From Membranipora membranacea (lineage: Eukaryota; Bryozoa; Gymnolaemata; Cheilostomatida; Membraniporidae), in the NCBI GenBank assembly GCA_914767715.1, contig OU612065.1, forward strand, positions 35,960,001 to 36,024,000: a stretch of 64,000 bases of DNA, in the 5' to 3' direction. The translations under genes were made by a program, and so were the position numbers. The notes under the pieces are model-generated. The model ran no database searches and had not been told where the DNA came from. It was given only the letters and a program-made list of their open reading frames with translations. Of this stretch, positions 20,580 to 59,327 are shown in pieces (the stretch's first letter is position 1; each line of letters opens with the position of its first letter).

Positions 20580-20694
20580 ATGGATCTTCCACCAAAAGAC
20601 TCTGCTAGGAGAAGAAGACTTAACACACAAGGGGCAGAAGCCACTGAGGAAGCTCAGGCTACAGGAACGGGTCAACCTGCTATTGATATGCAGA
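20580..20694 (+). CDS. Fusion gene exon 1, N-terminus
   Basis: The ATG at 20580-20582 begins a short polar peptide (MDLPPKDSARRRRLNTQG), then a Gln/Glu/Thr-rich part, ending in phase 1 at a GTAAGT donor. There is no signal peptide, so the protein is probably intracellular. The start is chosen because exon 2 joins in frame; an additional 5' exon cannot be excluded. Confidence 0.65.
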
Positions 20695-23600
20695 GTAAGT
20701 TTGGTTTATTCACAATGCAAAGACCCTAATTATAAAGATTATAATACTTTTCAGTGGATTCAACCATTTACTCTTTTATCCACAGCGCTAAGACGCTTAA
20801 CAAGTTTCTCTTCTGAGTAAACATCATGCCTGCTCCATATATCATAATATCACTAATTTCAATTGCACCTGGACGGAACCTGAAGAAGAAATGAAATACT
20901 CCCTAATAGGACGTCACATTTCGTTGTTTTCCTCTCTTCACAAAGAAGAAGACAGCCCTAGTTATTGCCAAAGCATGCGAATGTTTTAGTAGTGTAGTGT
21001 TAGGCCACACCGGGTGTCACATTGTCAAGGCTCTCAGGCTCTCCGCTATAATAACTCCTCTCAGCACGTAAACTTTCTATTGATTCAATATTGCACAACC
21101 TATCAACCATTTCTCTGTTTCTATATGAGATAACACTGATATTATTTGACACAAGCTCTCTTCTGTTTTAATGTTGATTGAAGGAAAAAAACATATTGTG
21201 CCACTGATTTTTCACCATAGCTTTTAATCTTGATCTAGAACATAATATATTAAGTGACGACCAAACTGCTGTTGATATTTATCAAATGTGAAGATATCGG
21301 GTCAATAAAATTAAATAGTTAAGGTAGCCCTATCACTTTTGTGAGCTTGTTTCTAACCATAACATGATATCAATAGTTTTAATATCCAGACTATTTCCTA
21401 TATGATTGGCTGGTCAGCTTAGGTGTGGTGTATATACCCCAATTTCGTTTATATTCTATTCGTATGCTATTGCTGAAACTTCTTTGGTGCTAACATCTAC
21501 CAAACTAGGTGGTACGTTATGATGATTCAGACAAGTTATCAAAGTTAAAACTTTAGGGAAAATATGTAACATCTTATAATCAGAGAACTTCTCTATTTTT
21601 TCTATATTTATGTTCACAGAGTATTATAGAATCTGGTATCGAGATGACAGTGGACCAGATATAGATGAGATACCTGATAAACCAGACTACACAGAATTTA
21701 AACTAGAAGAGCTTATTTCAGCTACACAGGATCTCACTGTGACTCATATGTCTATCGAAGGAGACATACCACCAGTACTCAGTCAGATAGCACCTCATCT
21801 AAAAGTGCTGGAGATAGAGTATATGACTGATGATGTCCAGTTAGAGAAGTAAGTAGATTAAAATCTATATAACAGACTGTATTGTGACCTCATACAGTAC
21901 ACAACGTTAGTTATTCTCATTATGACTGATAAATGTGATTTAGGTGCCCAGGTACTCGGGTGCAGTCCTTGTGATTTTTTGCCATTATTTGTCCTTGGCT
22001 CATTAAATTGAAGGTTTACACAATGGGCAATATCTAAATAATGTTCAATGTGCAAGGGGCAATATTCTTATTATATCCTCCGACATACATACATTCGGAC
22101 AACTCTTATTTTATTCCGAATCCACAACTATTGCAATTTATTTTTGAGTTGTCCTCTTTTTCCCAATGGATTTACCCTGGCTGTCCCCCCTCCCCATCCG
22201 CCCACCCCCAACAACCTGCCAAGGCTACCCTTTGTGGAACAGAAAGATTATGGGAGAGTAATTTCTAACTCTTATTGGACTGGATTATTACATTTTAACA
22301 ATAATTAAAGGGATAATACACTTCTGATCTCTGTTTGGCAGCCAATGGAGCACAGAAAAATGTATGTACATACAAAAACTCCTTATTTGTAATTCAAAAC
22401 CTCTTGTTCTGCTCAAATGTGCATTCTAAATTGTAGTTGTGCATCTCAAACAAGAAATAAGACAACTAACAGAATTGCTTGTGATCTGAAAAAAGCTGAT
22501 TTTGTGAGCAGTTGTGTGCTCCTACCTCTTGGTTAGTGTTTCAATTGTCCAGATACTCAAAGTGCGCATGTGCAATAAGGATGACCTTTTGACTTTAGCT
22601 TGTTATTTTCTAACAGCCCAGCTTAACAGTTTTATTACCATATCCGGTTATGGTAGTAAAAGTGTTAAGCTGGGCTGTTAGAAAATAACAAGCTAAAGTC
22701 AAAAGGTCATCCTTATTGCACATGCGCACTTTGAGTATCTGGACAAATGAAACACTAACCAAGAGGTAGGAGCACACAACTGCTCACAAAATCAGCTTTT
22801 TTCAGATCACAAGCAATTCTGTTAGTTGTCTTATTTCTTGTTGGAGATGCACAACTACAATTTAGAATGCACATTTGAGCAGAACAAGGGGTTTTGAATT
22901 ACAAATAAGGAGTTTTTGTATGTACATACATTTTTCTGTGCTCCATTGGCTGCCAAACAGAGATCAGAAGTGTATTATCCCTTTAAATGTTTTAAATCTC
23001 CAGCATGTTCATAACGAGGGATCAGTTCTCAACTACAGTAGTGTATAAAACAGTATTTTAGTTCAGTAAAATCTCATTTGATGTAAATCATGTAATAATC
23101 CGTGGGCTGAACATAAATTTATGTTTTTGTGTGCTTTTACCCCAGTTTGAAACTGTAACAACTGTTACAAAAAAATTATCCTTTGATTATCAATTGCACT
23201 CAGAAATGATGGTGGTGAAATATTCACCTCAAAATAGACAAAAAATGAACGCAGTCAACATCAAATAACTCGTAACTTAATGTATTAGATATGAATTATA
23301 TTTTTTTTTTTCAAAAAAAATTCAAAATTGATTCTTCTTATAATTGAGATTACTTACAAATTTAGCAGGAGGAAACCAACTAATAGACACATCGGATTAT
23401 ATATAGAGCATAAACCATCTTAACCTCAGTTAGTTATTCTACTTGTTGCAGTATGAGAACACTAACCAGCATAGAGGAAGTGAATATATCTGGGAATGAG
23501 GAACTGATATCCTTACCAGACTGGATTGGAGAACTCACGAGTCTTAAGAAGCTATATGTGTCTGTTTGTGGCCTCACTTACCTGCCTAACAGGTAAATAA

Positions 23601-26600
23601 ATATTATGATTTAATTTTTCTCAATATTAATTCTTACATCAGTGTCTTCATCAGTGATAAAATGACTCTTCATGTGATTTTAGATCTGTCAAAGGTAGTT
23701 TACAATGTGTTTATAATATCATATCAGTTAAAACTTTGATACTGGTAGGTATAAAACGATGTAAAAAAATTTATGTCTTAATATTTGACATCCTGTATGA
23801 GTTTCTGATAAAAGAGTTGCACTGGTTCAGAATAGACAGTTTTCTGAGCTCTGATCTAGGCCTCAATTCGGAGTTGTCCTCTCTCCAGTTTGGTACTTTC
23901 AACCCACGCCGCATAGGAAAAAATGTGCTGAAAAGAGGGTTATCTTGAAAACCGCTTATAATAGGATAAAAATTGTTTTTGATTCAGAATCTGCAACATT
24001 GAAACCTCATATGGACATAGTTTGGGAAATAATTTTAGAATTTGGATAGTCAATTATAGCATTTTCTGCCTGTTTTGCGGACCATTTGGCAGAATTTTTT
24101 ATGAGTTTCGTCACTAAAATTAAGATTAATCAACAATCACGCCTCCATTGATTTGGAAACCCTGTCTCACAGGGTTTTCAATGGTGCAGACTCTGAATCA
24201 AAAATCATTTTTATCTTAACATAAGCAGTTTTCAAGATAACCCTCTTTCAGCAGGTTTTTCCTATGCGGCGTGGGTTAAAAGTACCAAACTAGAGAGAGG
24301 ACAACTCCAAATTGAGGCATAAATAAGAGCCCAGAAAACTGTCTATATGAGTATGAATTTTGAGAAAATTGTAAGCAGTATTTTCATTCCTATTACACAC
24401 CAAAAATTCGGCATAAAAAAGTAGGAAGCAGTTTCTCTCTATTAACCTTGGTAAATCAGTGTAACCTTGTCCTGATCTTTCACAATTAAAAAGAAAGAAA
24501 GGAGGAGGATCTTTGTCTTCTGTTTTTTTTATTATTTAATTTCTTTGCTGCTGAACATTTGCCTGATCAGTTGTCTTCAGGACACCTACTTTTATCATAT
24601 GTTTGCTTGTTACCATACAAATCAAAGAATTTAGAAATTGTCAATTAGTTGGAAAGGGATTTTTTCTCGTATATCTTTCAGAGTGCGTGCTAATGCAATA
24701 TCAAGACAAATATCCTAAACTCCTTGCACTAACTCTGGTCAACGCAAACATCATCTCTTTACCGTTACATTTGAGATCTAAAGAGAAGTTCAGCTCATTC
24801 AAAACGTTACTATTCAACCATTTATTATCGACGTGACCAGCATCATTGATGATATTATTTCCTTTCTGTTTCTCTTTTTTTGTTTTAAAATTTTTTTTTA
24901 TCTGGCACTGAGTGCAAAACATTTCGAATGAGATGACTTTGGTTGCCAATAATGTTCATAACGAGGGATCAGTTCTCAACTACAGTAGTGAATAAACAGT
25001 ATTTTAGTTCAGTAAAACCTCATTTGATGTAGATCAGACAATAATCCGTGGGCTGAACAATTTTGTTTTGGTTATGACTAATTCTTATTGTATAGCATTA
25101 CAACTCTGAAAAATTTAGAGATTATGATATTAGAGAATCACAGGGGACTGAAGACATTACCTGATGGTATCGGGGGGGGGGGGGGTTGGGCTGGACCCAA
25201 GAGTCTCAGAGAGTTATCTATAGTTGAGTGTCTTATCAGACACCTACCTGAGAGGTAATTATATACTGAGTCACTCAGGACTATGATGACTGTATGTGGA
25301 TATTCTTAGTTCAGATCAGCATACTTTTCTACACACAAATCCCTGTCTTTGTAATCTGATAGAGGTTTATGTTGAGGCTGGGCAACATCGAAAGATATTT
25401 TTACCTCAATCCAAATACCACTAAGATTTCGCATTGAAATGGTGAACAACATAACTGCTGTCTGAATAAACTTAAGTTGACAATTCATAAGGTTAATAGA
25501 ATTTACCAATTGCTGTTCAAATCCTGACTAGTCAAAATAAGTTGGAAGTATATTTAATAATAATATTGATTGCACTGATTGTTAGATTTTGGCCAAATTT
25601 TAATTCTAAGCGTATCTGGAAGATTTCAAGAATCAAAACTTGGTAATTTTTCAATCCCAGACGTCGAACATGCCTCATCCGCACCCTCCCATGTGCCAAT
25701 GACCTGCTGCCCTAAATAACTGCCGAGTTGTCTAGCACCCCAACGAAATCTAGTATTTATCAACAAAAATAGTTGGGAGCCCTGGGCATGAATGGTACAT
25801 TTCACATCCATGACACAATAACCATATAAAACCAAGGAGTCCTTTCTCCTTTTCCCTATTACTTGCATTTCATTGTCGAGCTTCCCTTCACTCAATCCTG
25901 CTTTGCGAATTCATTATGTTCAGACTGTGGAGCAACTAAAAACAAATTGTGTCACTACTGGGATTTTAACCAGTAACCTGCTAACCATTAACTATTACTC
26001 CATATGGGCATTCATATTAATAATACTATTTCTTAACCCTGTTTTGCATGCAAGGCAACTTCATTATTTTTTAGCAGAGTACGTGTACCAGCAATCTTTT
26101 TCTCGCAACTTTTACAGTTAGTGATAGATCCCAATCAGTCAATCGAAACTCCATGCTACATCCAGTTGTGGAATGAATAGATGATGAATAAGGAGTGCTG
26201 ATACCGCCACAGTATAGTAAACATAGCCTTTATTCTGGACAGACAGGTTTCCATGAGATTATGACGTAAAAACATCTATCAATCATCATTCTATCTCCGT
26301 GTTACAGCATGAGAACACTAACCGGCATAGAGGAAATGGTTATATCCTGGAATGTGGGACTGAAATCCTTACCAGACTGGATAGGAGAACTCAAGAGTCT
26401 TAAGAAGCTAGATGTGTCTCAGTGTGGTCTCACTCACCTGCCTCACAGGTACATAAACATTATGATTTCATTATTCTCAATAATAGTATTTACATCAGTG
26501 TCTTTATTACTGGCTCTAGATGCAATTTTAGATCAATTACTTGTACTTTTAATACAATATTGGCTTCAATTAGCATGCCTGAAACCCAGCAACAATATGA

Positions 26601-29600
26601 TAATAGGATATGATATTAGCTAATGACTTCTCTTTGAGCGTGAAGAATTTTACAGATATACATTGTAATGATAGCTACATAGTATTTGCGGTTTTACGTT
26701 TCTGATGGGTAGCCTTTATCAGTGGTAGCAGTTGATTTTCGTTAAAATTTGGGTATGAATCGTGTCTTAAAAAGTCACTAACATAACAGAAGCAAATCTA
26801 TAGTCTGGTTGTAGTGTACTGGGGAAAATCACAAGCTTTATCAAATACACCCAATATTAATTTGAGGAAATAAGTAATTTTATCAAGTTGAGAGAACATA
26901 ACGAATAACTATTAATTAAGTGTGCGAAAGTGCAGCGACATATATCTCAAACATGTTAACCATTTTTGGCCATAGTGCCTTGTCAGTATATCATCGATCC
27001 CAGAGGTTTATCCCTGAAATTGTTTGTGATGCAATGGCCTGCGTTCATAAATAGTCCGAACCCTGTCATATTTAAATATGAGCACACTTTTCCCACAGAG
27101 AAGTTTTCCAATTTCAAAGTTGTATTTTGGTTTCATTCTGTCAGAAATTCTGCTGAACTCATGATGAGTCGGACGCAACTTGTATGCCCACTTTTAAGAG
27201 ACCCAGTGAGGCGGCTTGGGGGTGCGGAGTAACCTCTAGAGATTGAATCCACTTAATTTTAGATATGTCAAAGGTAGTTTACAATGTGTTTATAATATCA
27301 CATCAGTTAAAACTTAGATACTGGTAGGTATATAACTATGTAAAAACCTTTCTGTCTGTCTTATTGGACAGCATTACAACTCTGATAAATTTGGAGATTA
27401 TGATTATTAGAGAATCACAGGGGACTAGAAACATTACCTGATGGTATCGGGGGGGGGGGGGGGGGGGGCTGGACTTAAGAGTCTCAGAGAGTTATCTATA
27501 GTTGAGTGTCTTATCAGACACCTACCTGAGAGGTAATTATATACTGGGTCACTCAGGACTATGATGACTGTATGTGGATATTCTTAGTTCAGATCAGCAT
27601 ACTTTTCTACACACAAATCCCTGACTTTAGAGTCTGATAGAGGTTTATGTTGACGGTGGGCAACATCGAAAGATATTTTAACCTCAATCCAAATACCACT
27701 AAGATTTCGCATTGAAATGGTGAACAAAATAACCGCTGCCTGAATAAACTTAAGTTGACAATTCATTAGGATAATAGAATTTACCAATTGCTGTTCAAAT
27801 ACAGACTAGTCAAAATAAGTTGGAAGTAGTTTTAATAATAATATTGCTTGCACTGATTGTTAGATTTTGGCAAAATTTCAAATCTAAGCTTATTTGGAAG
27901 ATTTCAAGAATCAAAACTTGGTAATTTTTTAACCCTGTTTTTGCGTGCAAGGCAACTTCATTATCTTTTAGCAGAGTACTTCTACCAGCAACCTTTTTCT
28001 CACAATTTTTACAGTTAGTGATAGATACCAATCAGTCAATCAAACTGAATAGATGAAGAATAAAAAGCATTGAAAATAGAATGTTAACTAGCTTGATTCG
28101 GAGTGCTGATACCACCACAATATAGAAAACATAGCCTTTATTCTGGACATACAGGTTTCTGGGAGATTATGACGTAAAAATCATCTATCAATAATCATTC
28201 TATCTCCTTGTTACAGTATGAGAACACTAACAAGCATAGAGGAAGTGGATATATCTAGGAATGAGAAACTGAAATCCTTACCAGACTGGATTGGAAAACT
28301 CAAGAGTCTTAAGAAGCTATATGTGTTTGGATGTGGCCTCACTCACCTGCCTAACAGGTATGTAAATATTATGATTTCAATTTTCTCAATAATAATTCTT
28401 ACATCAGTGTCTTCTTCAGTGATAAAATGACTATTCATGTGATTTTAGATCTGTCAAAGGTAGTTTACAATGTGTTTATAATATCATATCAGTCTAAATA
28501 TTTGGCATCCTGTATGAGTTTCTGATAAAAGAGTTGCACTGGTTCAGAATATAAGTATCAAAATTGAGAAATCGTCTAAATGTTGCCTCACTCACCTACC
28601 TAACAGGTATGTGAACGCTATGATTCCATTATTCTCAATAATAGTTTTTACTTCAGTGTCTTTATTAGTGGCTCTAAATGCAATTTTAGATCACTCATCT
28701 TGTACTTTTAATACAATATTGGCTTCAATTAGCATACCTGAAACCCAGCAACAATATGATAATAGGATACGATATTAACTATTGACTTCTTGAGCGTGGA
28801 GAATTTTACAGATATACATTGATTAATGTAATAAAGCTACATAATATTTGCGGTTTTCGTTTCTGCCTGGGTAGTATTCATCAGTGGTAGCAGTTGATTT
28901 TTCTTTAAAATTTGGATATAAATTAAAAAGTCACTAACATATCAGAAGCAACATTGTTGCCGTAAATAGTCTGGTTGCAGTGTACTGGGAAAATAACAAG
29001 CTTTATTAAATACACCCAAAATTGATTTGAGAAACTAAGAGACACTTTGTGATCAAGATACTCTGATATCATAAACTGGTAATACTCACAAGTCGAGAGA
29101 ACATAACAAATAACTATTAAGTGTACGATAGTGTCACAACATATATCTCAAACATGTTAACCTATTTTTGGCCGTAGTGCCTTGTAAGTATATCATTTGA
29201 TCCCAGAGGTTTATCCCTGAAATTGTTTGTGATGCATAAATAATAGTCATAATAGTCATAGTCATAGTCATAATAGTCTGAACTCTGTCAACTTTAAGTA
29301 TGAGCATTGATTCAAACTGTTCCCACAGACAAGATTTCCATTTTCAATGCTGTATCTTAGTTTCAATCTGTGAGAAATTCAGCTTCAGTTATAATGAGTA
29401 AGAAGCAACTTGTATGCCCACTTTTAAAAGACCCATTGAGGGGGCTTGGGGATGCAAGTCAACTTCTTAGAGATTGAGTCCACCACATTTGAGAACATAG
29501 TTATTCACTTATAAGTCAGGCAAGGCAGTAGAGTAATGTGTGGTCGATTTCATTGCTCAGAAATTATCTATCCCCTTGAGTTAAACCTGCCAATCCATCC

Positions 29601-32600
29601 TAGGTTGCCGATGGTCTTATGCTTAAATTTGCTTTCTGGGGGAACCTACCGGTTGTGTTGTTCTTTGGGACGGGTGTTAGCATAAATTAATTTTTTTTTG
29701 TGCTTTTACCCCAGTTTGAAACTGTAACAAAAAAAATTATCCTTTAATAATCAATTGTACTCAGAAATGGTGGTGGTGAAATATTCACCTCAAAATAGAC
29801 TAAAAATGAATGCAGTCAACATCAAATAACTCGGAACTTGATGTATTAGATATGAATTTTTGTTCTACAAAATTTCCCAAAATTGATATTTCTTATAATT
29901 GAGATTACTTACAAATCTAGCAGTAGGAAACCATATAATAATATTCACATCGGATCATATATTATACTTATAATCTTATATTTGTGTATTAAAGAGCATT
30001 AACCATCTTATCCTCACCTATTTACTCTCCTTGTTGCAGCATGAGAACACTAACCAGCATAGAGGAAATGAATATATCCGGGAATATTGAACTGGAATCC
30101 TTACCAGACTGGATTGGAGAACTCATGAGTCTTAAGAAGCTAGATGTGTCTCAGTGTGGCCTCACTCACCTGCCTCACAGGTATGTGAACACTATGATTC
30201 TATTATTCTAAATAATAGTTTTTACTTCAGTGTCTTTTGGATATAAATTAAAAAGTCACTAACATAACAGAAGCAACATTGTTGCAAATAAATAGTCTGG
30301 TTGCAGTGTGCTGGGAAAATAACAAGCGTTATTAAATACACCCAAAATGTATTTGAGAAACTAAGAGACACGTTGTGATCAAGATACACTGATATCTTAA
30401 ACTGGTAATATTCACAACTCGAGAGAACATAACAAGTAACTATTAAGTGTGCGATAGTGTCACAACATATATCTCAATGATGTCAACCTCTTTTTGGCTG
30501 TAGTGCCTTGTAAGTATATCATTTGATCCCAGAGGTTTATCCCTGAAATTGTTTGTGATGCATTCATAATAGTCATAATAGTCATAGTCATAATAGTCAT
30601 AATGTCTCCATTAGTGATCAAATCACTCTAAATGTGGTTTCAGATCTGTCAAATAATATGTTTATGATATCATTTAAAACTTTGATACTGGTAGGTATAA
30701 AACTATGTAAAAACCTTTCTGTCTTAATAATTGGCATCCTGTTTGAGTTTCCGATAAAAGAGTAGCACTGGTTCAGAATATGAGTATCATATTCTGATAA
30801 AATTGTAAGCGGTCTTTTCATTCCTATTACACATTAGAAATTCGGCATACGAAAGGTAGGGAGCAGTTTCTCCATATTACCCTGGGTAAAGCAGTATAAC
30901 CTTGTCCTGAGCCTTCTATAGATATAATGAGTGTTCTAATGCCACTAGAGATAAACCTGACAGTCCAACTCTAGAATTAAATGGTGTGGAAATAGATTGT
31001 TGTGACAATGATAAATCTTTGGGAGTACTCTTTGATAACAAATCATGTTAATAATGTTGTAACAAAATGTTTGTTAGTTTGACCAAGGAGTAGTCCATGG
31101 TTTGACTTTTTGATTCTTCCTTCTTATTCCATGTGATTCCCTAATTATTTGGCATGTCATACTGTTTGAAAAACTACTTCTTTCTTAGTCTTAGCTCATG
31201 GGCACCTGGGACTTACATGCCTTACTTTACCAATGTGCAGTATCAACCGCGTGTTTTTTGGGGTGGTTGATACTGGACATTGGCAAAATAAGGCATGTAA
31301 GTCCCAGGGGCCCATGGCATAGCTAGTAGAGACTACCTGGAGTAAGTAGATTTGTTTAAATTCAGTATTGTGATCTACAGGCATCGACACACAGACATCA
31401 ATTTAGTCTATTAGTCATGTTGTGATCACATGATCTGTAGACCATAGAATAAAATCGGACAACTCTTATTCTATTCCGAATTCACAACTATTGCAATTTT
31501 TTTTTGAGTTGTCCTCTTTTTCCAAATGGATTTACCCTGGCTGTCCCCCCTCCCCATCCACCCATCCCCAACAGCCTGCCAAGGCTACCCTTTGTGGATC
31601 AGAAAGATTATGGGAGAGTAATTTCTAACTCTTATTGGACTGGATTATTACATTTTAACAATAATTAAATGTTTTAAATCTCCAGCATGTTCATAATGAG
31701 GGATCATTTCTCAACTGCAGTAGTGTATAAAACAGTATTTTAGTTCAGTAAAACCTCATTTGATGTAAATCATGTAATAATCTGTGCGCTGAACAATTTG
31801 TTTTGGTTATAACTAATTCTGATACCACCACAATATAGAAAACGAAGCCTATATTCTGGACAGACAGGTTCCCCCGGGAGGTTATGACTTAAAAATCATC
31901 TATCAATCATCATTCTATCTCCTTGTTACAGCATGAGAACACTAACCAGCATAGAGGAAGTGTATATATCCTTGAATAAGGAACTGAAATCCTTACCAGA
32001 CTGGATTGGAGAACTCACGAGTCTTAAGAAGCTAGATGTGTCTGAATGTGGCCTCACTCACCTACCTAACAGGTATGTGAACACTATGATTCCATTATTC
32101 TCAATAATAGTTTTTACTTCAGTGTCTTTTTTAGTGACTCTAAATGCAATTTTAGATCACTCATCTTGTACTTTTAATACAATATTAGCTTCAATTAGCA
32201 TGCCTGAAACCCAGCAACAATATGATAATAGGATATGATATTAACTAATGACTTCTTGAGCGTGGAGAATTTTACAGATATACATTGACTAATGTAATAT
32301 AGCTACTTAATTTTTGCGGTTTTCGTTTCTGCTGGGTAGTATTCATCAGTGATAGCAGTTGATTTTTTTTTCAAATTTGGATATAAATTAAAAAGTCACT
32401 AACATAACAGAAGCAACATTGTTGCAGTAAATAGTCTGGTTGCAGTGTACTGGGAAAATAACAAGCTTTATTAAATACACCCAAAATTGATTTGAGAAAC
32501 TAAGAGACACTTTGCGATCAAGATACACTGATTTCATAAACTGGTAATATTCACAAGTCGAGAGAACATAACAAATAACTATTAAGTGTGCGATAGTGTC

Positions 32601-41600: not shown

Positions 41601-44600
41601 ACAGAATTAGTTGAGAGTATCCTTATTGTAGAAACTCTTCACCTCACTTAGTTATTCTCCTTGTTACAGCATGAGATCACTAACCAGTATAACGGACGTG
41701 ACTATATATGGGAATGAGGAACTGATATCCTTACCAGACTGGATTGGAGAACTCACAAATCTTGAGAGGCTAGATGTGTCTGATTGTGGCCTCACTCACC
41801 TGCCTGACAGGTAAGTAAATGTTATGATTTCATTTTTCTGGGTAAATCAGTGAAACCTTATCCTGATCTTTCACAATAAAAAAGAAACAAAGGAGGAGGA
41901 TTTTTGTCTTTTGTTTGTTTTTTTATAATTTAATTTCTTTGCTGGTGATCATTTGCCTGATCATTTGTATGCCTGCTTTTAAAAGACCCAGTGAGGCGGC
42001 TTGTGGGCAAGGGGTAACCTCTAGAGATTGAATCCACTTCATTTGGAAACATAGGTATTCACTTATAAGTCAGGCAAGGTAGTAGAGTAATGTGTAGTTG
42101 TGTGTTGACTTCATTGCTCGAGAAGCATCTATCCCCTTGAGTTAATCCTGCCAATCCGAGGGTGCGGATGGTCTTATGCTTAAATTTTCTTTCTGGTGGT
42201 CTTTCTGAGTCTTAAGAAGCTAAATGTGTCTAAATGTGGCCTCACTCACCTGCCTTACAGGTATGTAACTATTATGATTTCATCATTTCCAATAATACTT
42301 CTCACATCAATTTCCTCTAAATGCCATTTTAGATACAAGTGTCTTTCATACAATATTGGTAAAAATGATGCTTAGAATGCATGAAAACAAATGAGAGAAA
42401 AAACAAATATTTCAATCAAATGACCTTAAAGGCTTGATGTTTGTTATTGTGACTTCAATAGCCTACCTGAAAACCAGCCACATTAAAATAATATGTCATA
42501 ATATTAACATATGATCATTCTTATGACTGCTTGGTCGTAAACAATTTACAGATGTATATTGATGAATATATGGCTACCTTATGTTTGTTTTCATTTTATG
42601 CTGGGTAGCCATCATCAGTGGCAGCAATTGGTTTTTGTTTCATGTGGGTATAAATTACGTCTGAAAATTCTTAATCATGATTGGAATTAATTCTCGTTCA
42701 ATTTTAGTCAGATATATGTCTATGTCTGTTAGTCTATGCTATACTGCCTTTAGAAGTCTCTTTGGCGATTAGAGAAAAATATCACAGGCTACATAAAATA
42801 TACCCAATAGTGATTCGGGTACTTGGCATCACTTTATGATCAAGATACACTGATATCACGAATTGGTAATATTCATTAGTTGAGAGGACATAACAAATAA
42901 CATGCAAATGAATAAATCCTGGTGAAATTGCCCTCTGTGCCACCCTACTCCTAATTGTTCAACTGGTTCTACTGATAATAATTGTGTAAACACTGTGTTA
43001 AGTCTGAAATACTGGCGATTTATAGAGGATTCAACAACAAAAATGATGAAAAATATCAAATATTGGAATCATGAGCAGTTAACAATTCAAGATGACAAAT
43101 GTTCTGGTGAAACAAAAATATGATACATCTGTTTGAGATGTCCTGTTACCTAATACCTAATACAGTGTGAAATGACTGCTTGTGAAAATCTGATATTTGT
43201 TGACCGTAGTGCCTTGTAAGTATATCATTGACAAACCTCTGCAGAAGTTTGCCTCTGAAATGGTCGGTAATAGTCCAAACTATGTCATTTTGGGAACATT
43301 AGCAAGAAATCAAACTGTTCTACCAAGAGGTCGGTAGTTGATCATAAGCTGCACCAACCAAAAAGCTGATACTTTGTGGCTCCATCGACCACATTTCTGT
43401 CCATTTGTTTGGTATATTATTCCTCCTCTCTAATACAAGATAATCAAGACTGGTATCTGAACTTATTTCTCTTTTTCTAGCATGTCAAAACTGGTAAATT
43501 TGACTTGAGCTCAGATCTAACACCTCTCTCCTCTCAATCTCTTCTGGTGTTTGTCAACTCAGTAAACTGACGTATATATTCTGTGATAAATGTAAAGCAC
43601 TGACGAGTCCTCCATATGCTGTCTGTACACAGGGGCTTGCTGCAATGAGAAAATACTTTACAGATCTGGAAGAAGATAGGGAGATGAACATTAAGTTTGT
43701 TCCAATCACTGTATTTGGTCAAACCATGGCCGGAAAAACCAGTCTTGTTCGGTCGATGCAGAAAAATGTACGTGTTTTGACCTTGCGATGTGACAATAGC
43801 AAGCTAGATGAGGCTACCAAAGTGTTCAAGGTGTGCGAGGCAGAGGTCGATGAAAAATACAAATTAGTATTCCATGACTTTGGTGGGCAGGCGATTTATC
43901 AGTTTGCCTACCAATTGTCAGATAGATCCCAGTACATTCCCATGCTCGTCATAGACATTGCTGAATTTGACCGTCTGATAACTGAACAGGGAGAAGAAGT
44001 TGCCTGTGAAACAGTTTGTTTTCAATGGCTCTCCCACCTCTACCTTGCAAGCCCCAAGGCAGGCCCGCCATTTGTAGTGTTGACCCACTGCGATGTTATC
44101 GATAGCCAGATCTGCGAAACTAGGCTGAGATTGCTGATAGAAGTAACAGAACGCTTACGATCAATATTATTAAAGGAGGAGAAAGCCATGGTACCAGAGA
44201 AAAGCCCAATTTTGATCATGAAAAGTTTCCAGGATACATCCCAGCCCCTTCTCACTCAGCACACACCACGCTTCTTTTACAAAGATTCTACCACTGAAGT
44301 AATTTGTGGTCTGAAAACCTTCCTCGTGTCTATTGGATTATCGCTGCTCACAGAAATTCCAGGTAGCTGGTATGTTCTGATGGAACTGTGTGCAAACAAC
44401 AAGCAGCCATACCTGACGCTGGAAGAGCTGGACAAGCTATTTCCTGGTGACAAAGACCGCGTAATTCTTCAATACCTGAATGAAATAGGAAGAATCAAGT
44501 GGTACAGGAATAGAGAAAACCTGTCCAATATAGTGTTCCATCGAATCGAGCTGCTCACACACCTGATCGAGTTGCTCTACGACCATTCCAGAAAGGATAC

Positions 44601-47600
44601 CTGGGATCAGCGGATAAAGAGTTTCCAAGCTTTTGAGGATGTGAGTCAGGATGTGAGAATAAACAAAAGGAAATACAACGACATGATTAGATCCTTCCTA
44701 GACACTGGGGTCATAAGGGATATTCTGCTACATCATCTAATCAGCCAAGAGTCTGAGGTTAGACCTGAGGTGGCAATAGAAGTATTGAAGGTGTTCCATC
44801 TGATCTGCGGTCCAGTACAGAAGGGTAGTGAGAGTCACTACGTCATCCCATACTTCAGTCCGAGAGTAATCACAGTAGAGGAATCTGGGAAATACATCCC
44901 TTTGAAAGTTGACATTTGTTTCAATGGATTGGCACTTCCAAGCTATGCATATGATCTGCTTACAGCAATATACGTCAACCTCCATATCACTCCTTCCAAT
45001 CACATTGATGTCGGCTGCAATGGTGCTTGTGTTAGTGAAGACAACGGCACAATCAAGTATTTATTTCACGACCATATTGAGAAAACCGTCACACTTATCA
45101 TACTATCACCATCAGAAGAAATAGCCACATCCTGGGACAGCCTGTTGAACACTTTGCAACATCTGACATCACAACTAGAAAAAGTATGGAAGGGAGCTCA
45201 CTGGGAGAAGGTGTTTTACTGCTCACACTGCCTGCTTGCTAAACAAGACAGCCTACACACTCAGGTGGATCCAGAATGGCTGACCCTTAAAAGGCCACCC
45301 TATACTGGCAAAGAAGTTTCTGTCTGCAGTGAACCCCCTACAGCCCAAGGCCGATTATCAGTTCCATGTCCGTTCATCTATCCATGTTAGTACCGCTAGA
45401 ATTATGTTTATAAACTCATGTGCAGTTGGCGTTTAAGGCATGATTTGAATGTTGCTGGTTGCATTTTTATGTCTCTTTCTGTATCTGTATTCTCTCTGCA
45501 AATCTTCATAAATGTTATAATTAATAGGCGGCAGCATTACTGAAAGAGGAATTAAAACTTTGGACGAGTACTTGTCAAATATTGAAACAGGACAGCATCA
45601 GGCAGGTAGGTAATTACAGAGTTCATGTTCGGTGATCGAGGAAAAAAAATCAAATTTAAAATTCTAATATATACCTCTGTCAGAACAATAACCATGGAAT
45701 TGTCAATGGTTGAACATGTCCACCTTTCCGGACTTTTATTGCTGTCACACAGGACAAGCAAAGTTAGGTATTGGATTGGGGCATCGGTTGATCTACGGTC
45801 TGGAAATGCTTTTATTCCCAGCCTTAGCCTGAGTACTCAACAAGTGCGTTTGAGTTGCTGTTGCCTCTTTTTAATCTTAATCTAGTTTCTGTTGTTGCTC
45901 ACTTGTGACAATTCAACAACAATAATAATTTCACAATCTGAAAACCCCGTTTTGTCATTTTTTTTAACACATATCATGTCTTTTTAGCGCAGATGCATTA
46001 TTTTCTCAATCTTTTTCCTTTTGTCACATGTTATAGTATTCATATTTTTTGTCTTTACAGCCTCAGCAACTTCACAGTCTGGTAGTTCACAAGATCAACT
46101 TGCTGTACAGGTATCACAAATTGATGATATTGTGAATGAAGTGAACTCTGATCAGGTTCTGATCAGTCATGAGCCAGTTACAGCTGATCCATCGAGCACA
46201 TATCTGAAGAATCAGGTAATTGAGTTGTCCAGCTTTTGCTATAAAAAAAGGCATGCTGACCTGTGCGATTCATTTTGCTGTCTTAGAATTGCCCTCTCAC
46301 ATTATCATCAGTTCTGTTAGTTAAGTTAAGTCCATACTTCCCATGCGTCCTCAACAAAACTTATTTCAATTGAAAGCTTTGCCAAGACAGACTAAAATGT
46401 GAAAATGAACACAGTGCAATATAAAATGCGCACTACATTTTACAACTTTGTTGATGTTATGTCTGCATGTCTTCATTGATCGGTTTTAGAGTGTGTATAG
46501 TGTGTCTAAAACTCGTGGAAGAGCACTGATAATATCAAACAGAGTCAGGAGAACAGGCTCAGATCATGACAACGACAATATTAAACGAATGCTAGGCAAG
46601 TTCGGATTCATTACTGTTGGAGGACATGACAGCTACACTGCGCAGGTAATGAATCTTCCACACAGCACTGCAAAATCCCGATACATTCAGTACATGACAA
46701 TAAATGTGTCGATTGAAACCATTACAGTTGGGAGAAATTAATTTGAACACTGAAAACTACTTAATTTAAACTTTGCTGATTTAAATGATGCATGAGTGAA
46801 ACCCTGGCCAATGATCATTAATTTTGATGAATCCCTCAAATATTTCCACTGACTTCATGAAATGTGTATAATGAAAAATATTACCACGGTTATTTACACT
46901 GTTGTGGCACCTAGCCTAACCTGTCTGGAATCAATATATCCATATATCAAACCTCATAGTATCATTTAACTTGGAGAGGTAGATGGATGTAATGATCCGA
47001 TGGGGATTAAGTGGAATTTACTCCTTGTGTTATGCTCTTTGCTTAGGAAATAGTTGCCGCTATTCATTCAGAGACACAACTAGTAGACCCACTGACAAAT
47101 GAATCAGTACACAAACAGCTACACTCATTTGTGCTAGTCATCGCGAGTCATGGACATGAGGGATCTGTATCTGGTTCTGATCGTAGACATCTCAAAATCA
47201 CAGAGGTTATAGACCTACTCTCCCCTAAAAACTTTCCTGCTATGAAAGGGAAGCCAAAGCTCGTGATTATACAGGCTTGTGCTGGCAGTAAGTCTGTAAA
47301 TCTGTATAAAGAATATAAAGACAGCTACCTAAGCTTTCAAAATACCTGCAAGTCTTCATTCAACTCTAGTAGAAAACTCATTTTATATGCTCAATAGAAA
47401 TTTATAGAAATATGATTGATTATCAAATACTATGACGCAACGCTGAGAAGTTGGCTATCGAGTCTAATTAGTATACATACAACCTGTTAACATCCTACAC
47501 TATTGTTAAGTGAACCACAGTAAGCTCTGAGCTATTAAAGTTTTGAAGAAAAAGTTAACATTACCCATCTGGACACATTAAATCAAGTTCTTTGGATTTT

Positions 47601-49152
47601 CATCTGCAACCGTTCTGATTTGTTTGATAGATCCTTATTGGATCGGGTCACTAAAAGCCAAGATAACATGACTTTGCAGGTAAGAGAGAGATGTATCTCA
47701 TGGACCCACCCCCTCCAAGACCTGCACAAATTCAGAATCGACCGGATGTCGGTAATATCAATCAGTCTTCTGCCCACACTTCTGATGATGACAGTGATAT
47801 CAATGAGGAAAATGATGAAGCAAGCAATCAAGACAGTGACGAAGACAGCGGTGAAGACAGCGGTGAAGACAGCGGTGAAGACAGCGGTGAAAATGGAACT
47901 GAGTCACATACCCTCGACCCTAGTGATATCTCTACATCAGACTTCATGATCATGCAGTCCAGCTTTGATTGTAAGTAGAGAACAATTTCTAACCTTGGTA
48001 ACCTAAAGAAAATGAATACAGCGATTGGTCAGCTGTAGCATTACTGATTTAATACACCAGAAAGAAAGCTCTAAGTTGGTCCTTTTCCACACGAAAACAA
48101 ACAAGTTTCCCGATCCATGCATTGCATGAATGTCTGGTTCTAAAAACAAAGTCAATTTGCTAATCTAAAAATTGATTCAGCACTTCAGCCATTGAGACGC
48201 AGGAACAGTGAAGGTCGAGTTAAATACAGGGGCAATCACAGCATGATTGTTTTATGACCAAATTTACTTTGACAAAATCAATTTAGCTTGTTTTAGTTTT
48301 CATATTATGATGTTGTTTTCCTACAGTGTTCAAGTCACCACGGAGACATACAGTTGGCTCGACGTTCATTCGATGCTTGGTATCAGTGTTCTACAGATAT
48401 GCTGATAGATATCATCTCAGGGAGCTGGCAAAAATGGTAAGTGATTGTACGATTAACATGTCGATTACCTTTCCTTTGTGAAAGTGCATAACATCAATTT
48501 TAGCATGAGTTGATGATAACTATATTCATTCCAAATCATTCGAAGATTCATACTTAGCTCTAGTCACATCCCTTGTTTCTCAGGTAGGGGAGGCTGTAGC
48601 TAAAGCTGGAACACAGAGAACAGAATATCTGCTGAGGACTCGTAGATACAATGGAAGTTTTGAGAATGCTTTTCGTGCCTCGATGCCGCAGACCAGATGT
48701 ACATTCATTGAAAAGGAGTTCTATCTACAGCCTGGTATCAATATGAGAACAGAGGATGGGCCAGAGGATCATCCAGAATCACTGAGAAACCCTGTGCTCC
48801 CGGATAAGACGTATACTAAAATAGAGCAAAAACCTAGTGAGTGATAAGAGCTATTTTGAGCTGGTATTTATGTTATTTATTTGCTTATGCTTATTATTGA
48901 TTTTGGTAATTAACCCTTGTGTGGCTTCTCTTTCTGAGGGGGGATGGGGTAATTCAATGATTCAAACAGTGACAGAAAATAACAAAATACAAAATGAATA
49001 CGCAAATAATTATATTGATGGCAATCTCGCATGATATATTTTATACCATATCTTCTGTTTTTCAAGATTTGATACAACGATTTGAGAGAGCAGGAGAGAT
49101 AAACCTGAAGAAAACTTATTATCAGTGGAGAGTGAGAAAGAACCCAACGTGA
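20580..49152 (+). CDS. LRR-Roc-COR-caspase fusion protein (about 1,630 residues)
   Basis: A single reading frame can be traced through exons 20580-20694, 21620-21848, ten intact LRR exons (23452 to 41810), a possible 13-nt microexon 43481-43493, 43633-45385 (Roc-COR), 45528-45605, 46061-46215, 46490-46645, 47047-47287, 47680-47970, 48327-48436, 48584-48836 and 49067-49152, with matching phases at each junction. Roc-COR proteins (LRRK2, MFHAS1 and bacterial relatives) are large GTPases that dimerise through COR. Caspases are Cys proteases activated by dimerisation and cleavage after Asp. Joined, the design resembles a one-chain inflammasome: LRR sensor, GTPase switch, protease output. Domains and catalytic residues are seen; the mechanism and any immune or cell-death role are inferred. 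No kinase, CARD, DED or death domain was seen. Transcript structure, especially which LRR exons are used, is unproven. Confidence 0.85.
21620..21848 (+). CDS. Fusion gene exon 2, LRR-capping segment
   Basis: The acceptor TGTTCACAG precedes 229 nt that end in phase 2 at GTAAGT, the phase used by every later LRR exon. The 76 residues start with YYRIWYRDDSG, are acidic, and end with LKVLEIEYMTDDVQLE, which reads as the first leucine-rich strand. Confidence 0.75.
22309..22982. mobile_element. Foldback MITE 1 (674 bp near-perfect palindrome, TTAA target)
   Basis: Two arms of about 335 bp are inverted copies meeting at a CCGG centre (22644-22647). The ends read AGGGATAATACACTTCTG and its complement. 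TTAA flanks both sides (22305-22308 and 22983-22986). Paralogous introns at about 31660-31690 and 36205-36230 show the uninterrupted site with one TTAA, which proves an insertion. A TTAA duplication fits piggyBac-mobilised non-autonomous elements. Confidence 0.9.
23452..23592 (+). CDS. LRR exon 1 of the array (47 codons, phase 2-2)
   Basis: Acceptor ACTTGTTGCAG, donor GTAAAT. It encodes two LRRs: a degenerate first one (SIEEVNISGNEELISLPDWIG) and a second ending in CGLTYLPNR. LPDWIGEL and CGLTHLP are the hallmark of every unit in this array. Confidence 0.85.
23835..24343. mobile_element. Foldback MITE 2 (about 509 bp, TA target)
   Basis: Inverted arms of about 110 bp end in GACAGTTTTCTG and its complement and are flanked by TA. 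The arms contain CCACGCCGCATAGG and its complement. Paralogous introns (for example about 30775 and 32750) continue straight from GGTTCAGAA to the downstream sequence without it. A related left half lies at about 54749-55040. The TA target points to a Tc1/mariner-type mobiliser. Confidence 0.8.
24440..24960. repeat. Duplicated intron block with minus-strand open-frame relics, copy 1
   Basis: This block recurs at about 32800-33420, and in parts at about 40960-41280 and 41845-41990. On the minus strand it has open stretches with a shared KKEKQKGNNIIND motif. The function is unknown and there is no recognisable domain; it may be an old transposon fragment carried along by the duplications. Confidence 0.5.
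25096..25254 (+). CDS. Poly-G LRR exon, copy 1 (in frame)
   Basis: A different LRR exon type: TTLKNLEIMILENHRGL, then LPDGIG, then a run of 14 G residues coding mostly Gly, then KSLRELSIVECLIRHLPER. At 159 nt it is phase 2-2 and open throughout. It is the only one of three copies (25096, 27372, 36414) that stays in frame. The G run is likely to be unstable or misread. Confidence 0.6.
25652..26026 (-). mobile_element. SINE-like insertion in the LRR intron, copy 1
   Basis: Flanked by ATTTTT/ATTTCT repeats; the empty site (GGTAATTTTTTAACCCTG) is seen in the paralogous intron at about 27921-27938. On the minus strand there is an A-box-like TAATGGTTAGCAGG and a B-box-like GGTTAAAATCCCAG. A second copy is at 36882-37224. 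The 89-codon minus-strand frame in it is likely accidental. Confidence 0.6.
26308..26448 (+). CDS. LRR exon 2 of the array (phase 2-2)
   Basis: Acceptor GTGTTACAG, donor GTACAT. 141 nt, 47 codons, two LRRs with LKSLPDWIGELKSLKKLDV and CGLTHLPHR. Open throughout. Confidence 0.85.
27372..27532 (+). pseudogene. Poly-G LRR exon, copy 2 (frameshifted)
   Basis: Same exon type as 25096-25254, with intact-looking splice sites, but one extra T early on and a 20-G run give 161 nt. The frame breaks to a stop. Skipping it would be harmless because the neighbouring exons share phase 2. Confidence 0.7.
28217..28357 (+). CDS. LRR exon 3 of the array (phase 2-2)
   Basis: Acceptor CTTGTTACAG, donor GTATGT. 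47 codons: VDISRNEKLKSLPDWIGKL and CGLTHLPNR. A detached copy of only the last part of such an exon, with its donor, lies at about 28580-28606. Confidence 0.85.
30040..30180 (+). CDS. LRR exon 4 of the array (phase 2-2)
   Basis: Acceptor CTTGTTGCAG, donor GTATGT. 47 codons: MNISGNIELESLPDWIGEL and CGLTHLPHR. Confidence 0.85.
31205..31309. mobile_element. Short hairpin element (about 45-bp arms)
   Basis: The left arm (CCTGGGACTTACATGCC to CAACC) and right arm (GGTTGATACTGGACATTGG to GTCCCAGGG) are near-perfect inverted repeats around a loop of about 16 nt (TGTTTTTTGG). A second copy (35332-35861) is split by a hAT-like insertion. The size and pairing would also suit a microRNA-like precursor, but the copy number points to a MITE. 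Confidence 0.65.
31932..32072 (+). CDS. LRR exon 5 of the array (phase 2-2)
   Basis: Acceptor CTTGTTACAG, donor GTATGT. 47 codons: VYISLNKELKSLPDWIGEL and ECGLTHLPNR. Confidence 0.85.
32800..33430. repeat. Duplicated intron block with minus-strand open-frame relics, copy 2
   Basis: Similar to 24440-24960, including the T-rich tract near 32930 and the minus-strand KKEKQKGNNIIND motif. It ends with a piece of the small hairpin MITE (TTGTCAATACAGG). Confidence 0.5.
34103..34243 (+). CDS. LRR exon 6 of the array (phase 2-2)
   Basis: Acceptor CTTGTTGCAG, donor GTAAGT. 47 codons beginning IRTLTSIEGV where the others have MRTLTSIEEV, then LKSLPDWIGELKSLKMLSA and CGLTHLPDR. Confidence 0.85.
34476..34616 (+). 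CDS. LRR exon 7 of the array (phase 2-2)
   Basis: It lies only 232 nt after exon 6, with a nearly identical donor side, so it is a recent local duplicate. Acceptor ACTTGTTGCAG, donor GTAAGT. 47 codons: VNISENWTLKSLPDWIGEL and CGLTHLPDR. Confidence 0.85.
35340..35753. mobile_element. hAT-like non-autonomous element (414 bp, 8-bp target duplication)
   Basis: Ends read CAGTGGCGTGTATT and, on the other strand, CAGGGGCGTATATT. The 8-bp duplication CCTGGGAC (35332-35339 and 35754-35761) matches the single CCTGGGAC of the uninterrupted hairpin copy at 31205. End sequence and 8-bp duplication are those of hAT transposons. It carries a tRNA-like stretch and two short palindromes (GGCGCTTAAGCGCC and GATCGGGC..GCCCGATC). 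Confidence 0.85.
35383..35467 (+). other. Degenerate tRNA-like sequence inside the hAT-like element
   Basis: A box TAGCTCAGTGAGTAGAGCG and B box GGGTTCGAATCCC are well kept and the D stem pairs (GCTC/GAGC). The acceptor pairs only with wobble, and the anticodon stem does not close. A TTTTTT terminator follows at about 35468. It could still be transcribed by Pol III. A functional tRNA is unlikely; a tRNA-derived SINE captured by the transposon is more likely. Confidence 0.6.
36414..36564 (+). pseudogene. Poly-G LRR exon, copy 3 (frameshifted)
   Basis: Same type as 25096-25254 but 151 nt long: 7 nt are lost before the LPDGIG codons and the G run is 18. It is not a multiple of three, so it is out of frame. 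Confidence 0.7.
36882..37224 (-). mobile_element. SINE-like insertion in the LRR intron, copy 2
   Basis: Paralogous to 25652-26026 with an internal deletion, flanked by ATTTTT on both sides. Inherited with the duplicated intron rather than inserted independently, since it sits at the same site. Confidence 0.55.
37540..37677 (+). CDS. LRR exon 8 of the array (phase 2-2, one codon shorter)
   Basis: Acceptor CTTGTTACAG, donor GTATGT. 46 codons: MSTLTSIEEVNISGNELESL, then PDWIGELKSL and ECGLTHLPNR. An orphan tail of another unit with its donor lies at about 37855-37878. Confidence 0.85.
38260..39620. repeat. Inserted AT-rich block with recurring GTCCYGYGCGTCACA motif
   Basis: This block interrupts the intron sequence shared by the other LRR units. 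The motif or a close variant recurs at about 38338, 38516-38531 (opposite strand), 38888, 39080, 39252, 39441 and 39588, spaced roughly 150-195 bp apart or twice that. It looks like a strongly diverged repeat. No coding frame was recognised. Confidence 0.5.
40067..40650 (-). mobile_element. LINE relic (L2/CR1-like reverse transcriptase) in an intron
   Basis: The minus strand carries ordered reverse-transcriptase blocks in broken frames: LIKARLLSILSLDNIQFVYR, then DACISLH, then ISAFITIVPNIILDNLR, then GYPQGCVLSPVLF and LYTDSICSGHDNVKF. This order is that of L2/CR1-group elements. Stops show it is dead. Confidence 0.75.
41670..41810 (+). CDS. LRR exon 9 of the array (phase 2-2)
   Basis: Acceptor CTTGTTACAG, donor GTAAGT. 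47 codons: MRSLTSITDVTIYGNEELIS, then LPDWIGELTNLERLDV and CGLTHLPDR. The most divergent full unit, and the one nearest the Roc exon. Confidence 0.85.
42210..42260 (+). CDS. Half LRR exon (17 codons), uncertain
   Basis: Only the second LRR of a unit is present (LKKLNVSKCGLTHLPYR), with a normal GTATGT donor and a possible TTTCTGAG acceptor. The 51 nt keep phase 2-2. It could be a real short exon or a fragment left by a deletion. Confidence 0.35.
42261..43480. other. Intron before the Roc exon
   Basis: AT-rich intron sequence, partly shared with the introns after the other LRR exons (for example the TGCTGGGTAGCCATCATCAG block). No coding or RNA feature was seen. Confidence 0.5.
43481..43493 (+). 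CDS. Candidate 13-nt microexon linking LRR and Roc
   Basis: LRR exons end in phase 2 and the Roc exon opens in phase 0, so a joining exon is needed. These 13 nt follow a strong acceptor (CTCTTTTTCTAG), read as one completing base plus MSKL, and are followed by GTAAAT, giving exactly a phase 2-to-0 change. Inferred from phase logic only. Confidence 0.5.
43633..45385 (+). CDS. Roc GTPase-COR exon (single 1.75-kb exon)
   Basis: Encodes about 584 residues with no intron. A short GLAAMRKYFTDLE helix precedes the Roc domain: P-loop GQTMAGKTS (43717-43740), switch II DFGGQ (about 43876-43890) and THCD as the G4 motif (about 44083). All nucleotide-binding motifs are intact. The COR region follows (ELCANNKQPYLTLEELDKLF, then LNEIGRIKWY and VFHRIELLTHLIELLYDHS). 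COR mediates dimerisation and couples the nucleotide state to effectors in Roco proteins. The exon ends at the GTTAGT donor in phase 1; reading on would stop two bases into the intron. The intronless form contrasts with the rest of the gene. Confidence 0.9.
45528..46215 (+). CDS. Linker exons between COR and caspase (45528-45605 and 46061-46215)
   Basis: Two short exons in phases 1-1 and 1-0. The first encodes GSITERGIKTLDEYLSNIET, possibly a helix. The second is Ser/Gln-rich (ASATSQSGSSQDQL), then acidic and flexible. Low complexity suggests a tether that lets the protease move relative to the GTPase. An alternative frame of the first exon is also open, but only the stated one joins both neighbours. 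Confidence 0.7.
46490..47287 (+). CDS. Caspase p20 (large subunit) exons
   Basis: Exon 46490-46645 encodes the opening strand (RGRALIISN), then RRTGSDHDNDNIKRMLGKFG, matching the caspase R-x-G-x-x-x-D pattern whose Arg lines the S1 pocket. Exon 47047-47287 encodes FVLVIASHGHEGSVSGSD with the catalytic His (codon at 47149-47151), then KPKLVIIQACAG with the catalytic Cys (47278-47280). The usual QACRG is QACAG here. The pocket Gln of QAC is kept. Both catalytic residues are present, so activity is predicted. It is a true caspase rather than a metacaspase, by the QAC context and the split p10. Confidence 0.92.
47680..47970 (+). CDS. Asp-rich interdomain linker exon of the caspase
   Basis: After QACAGSKREMYLMDPPPP the exon encodes a Pro-rich and then strongly acidic stretch rich in Asp, Glu and Ser, including four DSGE units, and ends in DFMIMQSSFD at the start of the p10 part. 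Caspase zymogens are matured by cleavage after Asp in this linker, so many possible sites exist. At about 75 residues it is longer than usual. Confidence 0.85.
47844..47891 (+). repeat. Coding minisatellite, 12 bp x 4
   Basis: Four copies of GACAGCGGTGAA encode DSGE repeats in the caspase linker. Changes in unit number keep the frame. Confidence 0.95.
48327..48836 (+). CDS. Caspase p10 (small subunit) exons
   Basis: Exon 48327-48436 encodes FKSPRRHTVGSTFIRCLVSV, aligning with the SWR.....GS.FI block of p10; the Arg of SWR, which binds substrate Asp, aligns with Arg here, though Trp is Pro. Exon 48584-48836 encodes VGEAVAKAG and MPQTRCTFIEKEFYLQPG, the position of the final LtkelYF strand of caspases. 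About 40 further residues rich in Glu, Asp and Pro form an extension not found in ordinary caspases. Confidence 0.88.
49067..49152 (+). CDS. Terminal exon of the fusion gene
   Basis: The acceptor TTTTTCAAG opens a phase-1 exon encoding LIQRFERAGEINLKKTYYQW and a basic tail, stop TGA at 49150-49152. Its KTYYQW core recurs in an isolated exon relic at 55061-55140. Confidence 0.8.
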
Positions 49153-58062: not shown

Positions 58063-58339
58063 CTGAAAAAAGAGGACATATCAAGATGTCAGGTTAGTCA
58101 GTTAAATTAGAGAAACTATCAAAAGTACTAAAACCTAAATTCCTCGAGGGTGAGTGGCATTTACTGCTACAATCATTTTGTTTTAACAGTCAATGAGAAA
58201 CCCCACAAAGTTGATAAACAACTCCTTGACTACACACAGAAACCACAAATTGGAGTTCCGATTTATTTCGTTTTATCATAACAACTCTCACACACTATCA
58301 AGCCGCTCCAATGACCTTAATGTTCCGTTCTCTCTCGTA
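58063..58339. other. Gap between SMARCA-like exon and 5S array
   Basis: Ordinary AT-rich sequence. I looked for a further minus-strand exon ending in phase 2 and saw none. The first recognisable array sequence (ATTATATCTTTCATCT) begins at about 58345. Confidence 0.5.
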
Positions 58340-58976: not shown

Positions 58977-59094
58977 GTCTACAGCACGCAGTATTCCCAG
59001 GCGGTCACCCATCCAAGTACTATCTAGGCTCGACGTTGCTTAGCTTCAGTGATCGAACGAGAACTGGCGTTTTCAACGTGATATGGCCGTAGAC
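58977..59094 (-). rRNA. 5S rRNA: 5S rRNA, array-edge copy, probably degenerate
   Basis: 118 bp, from GTCTACGGCCATATCACG to GTAGAC, followed by a TTTT terminator. It has several changes from the other copies (for example a C-to-G in the 3' stem region, TATCTAGG for TAACTGGG, GAAC for GGAC). At the array edge, where homogenisation is weakest, it is probably a pseudogene. Confidence 0.85.
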
Positions 59095-59327
59095 GATTAT
59101 GGTGATTAATTTTAGCAGTTTTATGCTTGGATGCAAGAATAACTAACCAAGGGCATGCAACTCTTGTTTTGATTTGCATGTTTATAGTCTTATTCCTAGA
59201 CATTTTAACTTGTTTCTCTATATGACAACAGAATCATCCTTCTCCTTCTTCATCATATCTTTCATCTATTATAGAACATACATTTCTCTTCCATAACATT
59301 GTTAGTTTGCAACTTACCTTTTCGATT

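Follow-up and report, generated by a model that had tools for sequence, protein, structure and literature searches.

A family of predicted one-chain LRR-Roc-COR-caspase receptors in the bryozoan Membranipora membranacea

Exon organisation and state of the window copy

The stretch of Membranipora membranacea DNA analysed here (64,000 nucleotides, chromosome 1, 35,960,001-36,024,000, hereafter the window) carries on its plus strand, between 20580 and 48844, a start exon followed by an N-terminal exon, LRR exons and a Roc-COR exon, after which come two exons for a linker and five for the caspase. Exon 1 (20580..20694) opens with the start codon at 20580 and ends in phase 1 at a GTAAGT; it has ten matches in the genome including itself, all on chromosome 1, and nine of them lie inside an array at 35.98-36.68 Mb. 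The N-terminal exon (21620..21848, beginning DEIPDKPDYTEFKLEELISATQDLTV) is entered in phase 1 and left in phase 2. It has 141 matches in the genome, 136 of which are on chromosomes 3, 1, 5 and 10.

The LRR exons fall into two full-length types, a and b. Eleven are in frame (nine of type a, one of type b and one of half length), and two further type b exons are out of frame. Most in-frame LRR exons measure 141 nt, encode two 23-residue repeats apiece and are bounded by phase 2 on both sides, so that skipping or adding one leaves the frame intact. Type a exons lie at 23452..23592, 26308..26448, 28217..28357, 30040..30180, 31932..32072, 34103..34243, 34476..34616, 37540..37677 (138 nt) and 41670..41810. 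The in-frame type b exon (25096..25254) contains a glycine run, while the two out-of-frame ones (27372..27532 and 36414..36564) each contain a poly-G run. The half-length exon (42210..42260, 51 nt) again has phase 2 at both ends.

Exon A (43481..45385) encodes the last LRRs, Roc and COR; its start is taken from a conserved acceptor and it ends in phase 1. Two linker exons follow. Exon B (45528..45605) carries a SITxxGxxxLDxYL-like motif and, with a length of 78 nt, could be skipped without changing the frame. Exon C (46061..46215), which leads into the caspase and ends in phase 0, is fused with B into one continuous exon in the paralogs L017, L018, L020 and L021. The caspase part begins with exon D (46490..46645) and continues with exon E (47047..47287), which encodes p20 and contains the His of SHG and the Cys of QACAG; the frame in which it lies matches PF00656 at 2.5e-12. 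Exon F (47680..47970) encodes the acidic stretch, rich in Asp, that links p20 to p10, exon G (48327..48436, GSTFIRCLVSVF) the start of the p10 core, and exon H (48584..48844) the end of p10 with the stop codon at 48842-48844. The preliminary description of this DNA had extended the gene to 49152, which would require one further exon.

The same description had the phases joining from start to stop. This is so for the caspase exons and the in-frame LRR exons; it fails at the two out-of-frame LRR exons and at exon A, which is frameshifted. In comparison with nine paralogs, all of them open at this point, the window copy lacks 5 nt near 43502, where exon A still encodes LRRs, and because of this loss the frame read from 43481 stops nine residues into the exon (chain residue 616). 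The use of a weak inner acceptor, with an exon start at 43515 and the right phase, keeps the chain open for 1660 aa. Three paralogs that are 96% identical to the window (L010, L011 and L015) have an open frame at the deletion site. On chromosome 1, copies with an open exon A lie at 36.26, 36.31 and 36.63 Mb. The closest copy over the exon A part, L012 (99.3% over 4.3 kb), itself lacks about 67 nt inside Roc-COR.

The window copy may thus be damaged, beside intact close copies. We lean slightly towards regarding it as a pseudogene, or as a gene limited to rescue splicing, with function residing in the paralogs; the missing 5 nt, the two out-of-frame LRR exons and the loss in its array neighbour L012 all point that way. 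Against this, the remaining chain is open over its 1660 codons through the right-phase acceptor, every caspase exon is open, and the 5-nt deletion may be an assembly error. For the architecture, the paralogs are therefore better evidence than this flawed copy.

Other features share the window. Upstream on the same strand, 3176-4035 matches an ADAMTS cysteine-rich region (1.9e-11) and an LDL-receptor class A domain (8.9e-7). Downstream on the opposite strand, a bromodomain exon (5.5e-17) belonging to another gene occupies 57828-58088. The end of the window, 59000-64000, contains direct repeats spaced 1365-1369 nt apart, four copies of which are 95-100% alike over a 300-nt stretch from 59002; an 81-codon frame with no Pfam match occurs three times in this region (60858, 62227 and 63593).

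The Roc-COR and caspase parts

The LRR exons and the Roc motifs reported earlier are present in the window, the latter as GQTMAGKT, DFGG and THCD in a 628-codon frame at 43504-45390. In Pfam, exon A scores below threshold for both Roc (20.4 bits, cut-off 27) and COR-A (14.4 bits, cut-off 35.3), and COR-A falls below its cut-off in the paralog L029 as well; the names Roc and COR therefore rest on profile and fold matches. The predicted structure of exon A (pLDDT 81.9, pTM 0.79) was matched by Foldseek to the Roc-COR structures 6hlu and 3dpu of the C. tepidum Roco protein (E 3.8e-15, ~590 columns, TM 0.46 by query length), to LRRK1 (E 1.8e-14) and to LRRK2. This match bears out the COR region proposed in the preliminary description. 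Further, a profile of 21 sequences matched 3dpu at 1.9e-14 across the Roc part, and the AGKTS and D-GG columns are invariant in the 21 aligned sequences. A Pfam scan of exon A at E values up to 10 returned Roc, AAA_22 and COR-A only, with no NACHT or NB-ARC.

A Roc with P-loop, DxxG and G4, a COR directly C-terminal to it and LRRs in the same chain are all found, and the product is predicted to be a Roco-type protein. By analogy with known Roco proteins, it would undergo nucleotide-dependent dimerisation; Roco proteins are thought to be dimeric, and the C. tepidum Roc-COR is described, in the part of the source available, as requiring the dimer for GTP hydrolysis (PMC4104024). That the LRRs and Roc-COR form one chain is seen most directly in L029, where a single frame of no fewer than 2275 codons (L029 2-6829), part of a whole frame of 2462 codons, runs through both without a break. 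About three quarters of this frame is a run of similar 23-residue LRRs ahead of Roc-COR.

Positive selection on the LRR exons was considered and dropped. Among eight LRR exons compared, replacement changes concentrate at the sites predicted to face the ligand (as high a value occurred in 8 of 2000 random sets), and because silent changes in the same exons cluster there too (ratio 0.75 vs 1.09), positive selection is not demonstrated.

The caspase p20 and p10 exons noted earlier are likewise present: the exons at 46490-48844 join in phase into a p20-p10 sequence with a His-Cys dyad whose PF00656 match covers all 233 positions of the profile (1-233, E 5.4e-29). SHG or THG together with QAC(A/S)G is kept in 19/19 paralogs. 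The arginines that we take to form the S1 pocket appear retained in the caspase alignment, and cleavage after Asp is putatively assigned. The linker between p20 and p10 is less regular. A 12-nt tandem repeat at 47830-47891 encodes DSGE units, and the exon F alignments to L010, L011, L012 and L015 span 100, 140, 104 and 96 columns, the length varying among close paralogs. A divergent caspase type is also found, in L029, L031 and L032. Its p10 exon passes PF00656 (2.6e-11, 9.7e-5 and 5.4e-6, respectively), and its p20 exon alone gives a weak PF00656 score or none.

One may ask whether the caspase part acts as a protease under the control of Roc-COR. Roc-COR could be a mere scaffold, and the caspase an allosteric or non-proteolytic module or one that is constitutively cleaved off. 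The window has QACAG where QACRG is the more usual caspase active-site motif, and the many Asp residues of the acidic linker could permit constitutive cutting. However, both His and Cys are retained in all 19 paralogs and the caspase exons are constrained by pN/pS, and we regard this reading as unlikely.

Linkage and splicing across paralogs

The decisive question is whether Roc-COR and caspase belong to one chain, and the paralogs carry most of the answer. A search of the same genome gave 70 scored Roc-COR matches from 244 candidates; two of the 70 are pieces of one broken locus, so the number of loci is 69. A same-strand caspase lies 0.5-3.1 kb downstream of 70/70 matches. For 50 of them this is a PF00656 match at 933-3000 bp, as compared to 0/70 in each of the three other orientations and to a mean of 2.2 (maximum 8) in 1000 trials with randomly shifted positions. 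Behind 16 of the other 20 matches, at a distance of 480-3096 bp, lies a caspase exon of the divergent type, and direct reading of the last four showed exons B-H to be present. The apparent lack of a caspase behind 20 of the 70 matches was an artefact of PF00656 sensitivity and of the scoring of best candidates, and all 20 cases were resolved. The linkage holds over 34%-98% Roc-COR identity and on six chromosomes. A chance alignment of unrelated exons is ruled out by the paralogs.

The reverse direction gave a similar picture. Of 20 regions chosen from caspase places, 19 contain a Roc-COR exon; the remaining one, L028, has a caspase exon and no Roc-COR. No Roc-COR match was found in five of eight short loci (L001, L002, L005, L007 and L008), which are 3.2-3.8 kb long with short flanks only; L005 coincides with L028. 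The N-terminal exon is linked as well. For 60 of the 69 loci, a copy lies at most 60 kb upstream and is not separated from the locus by any other Roc-COR among those listed. Seven loci have no same-strand N-terminal exon within 60 kb upstream, and two more have an intervening Roc-COR. As controls, the opposite strand upstream gave 1/69 and the same strand downstream 34/69, the latter as tandem arrays would give.

The splice sites between the two halves are conserved. In 20/20 loci (the window and 19 paralogs) the donor that closes exon A is a GT in phase 1 and falls at the same codon. A phase-1 acceptor precedes exon B in 16/16 loci where B was located by its motif; the motif missed B in L019, L020, L023 and L027, and tblastn recovered it in L019 and L020. 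A phase-0 donor follows exon C in 14/14 readable loci, and a phase-0 AG precedes exon D in 20/20 loci, with further AGs nearby in some. Compared with L017, L018, L019 and L021, references that are near-identical to one another, Roc-COR has a pN/pS of 0.28, exon B (which has only 24 codons) of 0.36, exon C of 0.46 and exons D-H of 0.26-0.55; the closest copies, L010, L011 and L015, hold too few changes for a meaningful ratio. Finally, L037 contains LRRs, Roc, a truncated COR and a piece of caspase p20 in a single 842-codon frame, and three further places are listed with a frame of this length. L037 arose by deletion; what identifies its caspase part is a 93% identity to the L030-type exon, not a Pfam match.

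Two neighbouring genes, one for LRR-Roc-COR and one for a separate caspase, duplicated jointly as a unit, would also explain the close spacing. An in-frame TAG follows the Roc-COR exon of the window; however, a stop stands directly after the donor in just 5 of 20 loci, the window included, and only where the donor reads gttagt. A separate caspase gene would further need a start codon of its own. In-frame Met codons within B or C in L009, L014, L017 and L021 could in principle provide it, as could candidate exons that combine an ATG with a donor and lie between A and C in the window, L010 and L011, or the Met in exon D of many paralogs (VY(E/K/P)MSETRGR). The last of these we take to be a usual caspase feature. 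Against independent starts, no Met between exons A and D is common to all loci, no possible ATG exon between A and C is listed for L015, L022, L025 or L026, and 10 of 11 loci lack an ATG in the open stretch just ahead of exon D, which is 0-21 codons long in these ten. Exons B and C appear to be coding and constrained, donor, acceptors and phases are conserved, and the linkage persists over the 34%-98% range of Roc-COR identity and on six chromosomes. Two genes are, on this evidence, very improbable.

The one-chain LRR-Roc-COR-caspase protein of the preliminary description is thus well supported by the paralogs through their linkage, phases and the L037 frame; it does not extend unbroken to the window copy, which is frameshifted. 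The one-chain reading is preferred because the paralogs share order, strand, phases and constraint.

Family expansion, proposed mechanism and known systems

The paralogs also suggest how the family changes. In the 36-Mb array, L009, L013, L014 and L016 are near the window in Roc-COR (dS 0.08-0.11) and far from it in exons C-E (dS 0.55-1.39). When L009 and L014 are aligned to the window, the long match breaks off sharply within 45386-45391, its last position being 45391, just beyond the donor of exon A; past this point only pieces over the caspase exons align. From the dS contrast and this break, exchange or conversion between sensor and protease halves has probably taken place at the intron after exon A. 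Within this one array, L009 and L014 on the one hand and the window on the other present a nearly identical sensor half on two different caspase lineages.

Caspases reach beyond the Roc-COR loci. The divergent caspase exon has at least 150 matches in the genome (150/150 scored; 235 candidates), a very large caspase expansion, and it is also found on chromosomes 2, 4, 6, 7 and 8, where no Roc-COR appears in the listed matches. At C11:3007001-3011000, the region L038 contains, at 102-3485, a 1127-codon frame with ankyrin repeats (Ank_2 1.8e-48) and a stretch resembling the divergent caspase p20 (30% identity, E 1.3e-10) that keeps SHG and is not called by Pfam. This frame suggests that the genome holds more receptor-caspase fusions.

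We consider it likely that the locus in the window, which may be damaged, belongs to a large bryozoan family whose products are one-chain receptors, probably cytosolic, of the form N-terminal-LRR-Roc-COR-linker-caspase, and that these would act as follows. The LRRs would bind a microbial, stress or non-self ligand, and binding would alter the nucleotide state and lead Roc-COR to dimerise. Initiator caspases are activated by proximity, and the Roc-COR dimer would pair two caspase domains, as adaptors do for those enzymes. The Asp-rich linker of exon F would be self-cleaved, and the activated caspase would bring about cell death or inflammation-like signalling. Such a sensor-switch-protease mechanism, read from predicted domains, would fit the anatomy of the chain. 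With frame-neutral LRR exons, tandem arrays and halves recombining at an intron, specificity could evolve fast. A bolder view, which we hold only tentatively, is that this colonial animal possesses considerably more than a hundred such chains as 'inflammasomes', each with a built-in caspase set off by GTP-driven Roc-COR dimerisation, and that the exchange of LRR exons and of whole halves between genes could provide colony-individual sets for pathogen defence or self/non-self recognition.

If true, an animal would have swapped the adaptor-built inflammasome or apoptosome for one polypeptide, with Roc-COR where NACHT sits, and would have expanded it on the scale of the NLRs of other animals. The family would offer a direct test of whether Roc-COR dimerisation suffices for caspase activation, would connect the Roco-caspase defence proteins of bacteria with cell death in animals, and would supply candidate receptors for bryozoan immunity or colony recognition.

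Database searches returned few relatives. Among the best 7995 candidates of a protein database, 27 are relatives, none of which (0/27) has PF00656 listed, and the top 20 are Roc-COR frames with no caspase match; the best named match among these candidates is a Haliotis MFHAS1 homologue, only 21% identical. The (Y/F)PC end point is kept in six of seven database relatives inspected (P0002, P0003, P0006, P0015, P0019 and P0021; not P0010). Querying the same database with the caspase part gave no match among 4659 candidates. An ordinary caspase of this genome, by comparison, had eight hits, the only named one being from the bryozoan Watersipora subatra, which speaks against a sponge origin of the DNA. 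Three peptide patterns run against a prokaryote genome set gave 158 pattern matches, none confirmed as a close relative, distant relatives being beyond the reach of such patterns; in the protein database, a cyanobacterial COR protein matched 10% of the query with an E of 2.3e-4. None of 23 viral pattern matches was confirmed, and the best PADLOC hit reached an E of only 0.05. As for the literature, no description of an animal LRR-Roc-COR-caspase protein was found among the top-ranked papers searched, a collection from which subscription journals are mostly absent, and no immune-receptor study in Bryozoa was found in it. A word search of the available text of the Flustra genome paper for 'immun' and 'caspase' returned neither. 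This is a real and surprising gene family and, as far as searched, new in animals.

Animal NLRs, inflammasomes and the apoptosome likewise join an LRR or other sensor and an NTP switch to caspase activation by proximity. In the bryozoan chain, by contrast, Roc-COR occupies the position of NACHT or NB-ARC, and the caspase belongs to the chain itself, whereas those systems recruit it by way of CARD, PYD or DED adaptors. The animal ROCO proteins LRRK1/2, MFHAS1 and DAPK1 share the Roc-COR core and differ in bearing a kinase or no effector, not a caspase. The Aplysia ROCO-TIR, as presented in the accessible part of its source, has the same core with TIR instead of caspase (PMC9334734). A partial animal precedent may exist in sponges, since both CASc and COR are among the domains in the NLR figure of a sponge paper available in part (PMC12909245).

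Outside animals, the LRR-ROCO candidate receptors of brown algae resemble the bryozoan family in their shufflable phase-2 LRR exons, multiple copies and LRR-ROC-COR order. They carry one LRR per 72-nt exon, in contrast to two per ~141-nt exon in Membranipora, and the word 'caspase' is absent from the available text of that paper (PMC11378527). A precedent lies in bacteria, where caspase is among at least 24 C-terminal domains of LRR-AP-GTPase(Roc)-COR proteins (Kaur et al. 2021, PMC8195603); going by the portion of that source at hand, the layout is therefore known in bacteria, with the same domain order. The earlier remark that a Roc-COR-caspase fusion is not known to have been described in animals agrees with the literature searched and has to be read beside this bacterial precedent. 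Like the bacterial AP-GTPase-COR conflict proteins, as far as that source describes them, the bryozoan chains would combine rapidly evolving N-terminal LRRs, Roc and COR with a C-terminal caspase effector; unlike the bacterial systems, in which the effector varies across those domains, the bryozoan family is intron-rich and has a caspase at all 69 loci (PMC8195603).
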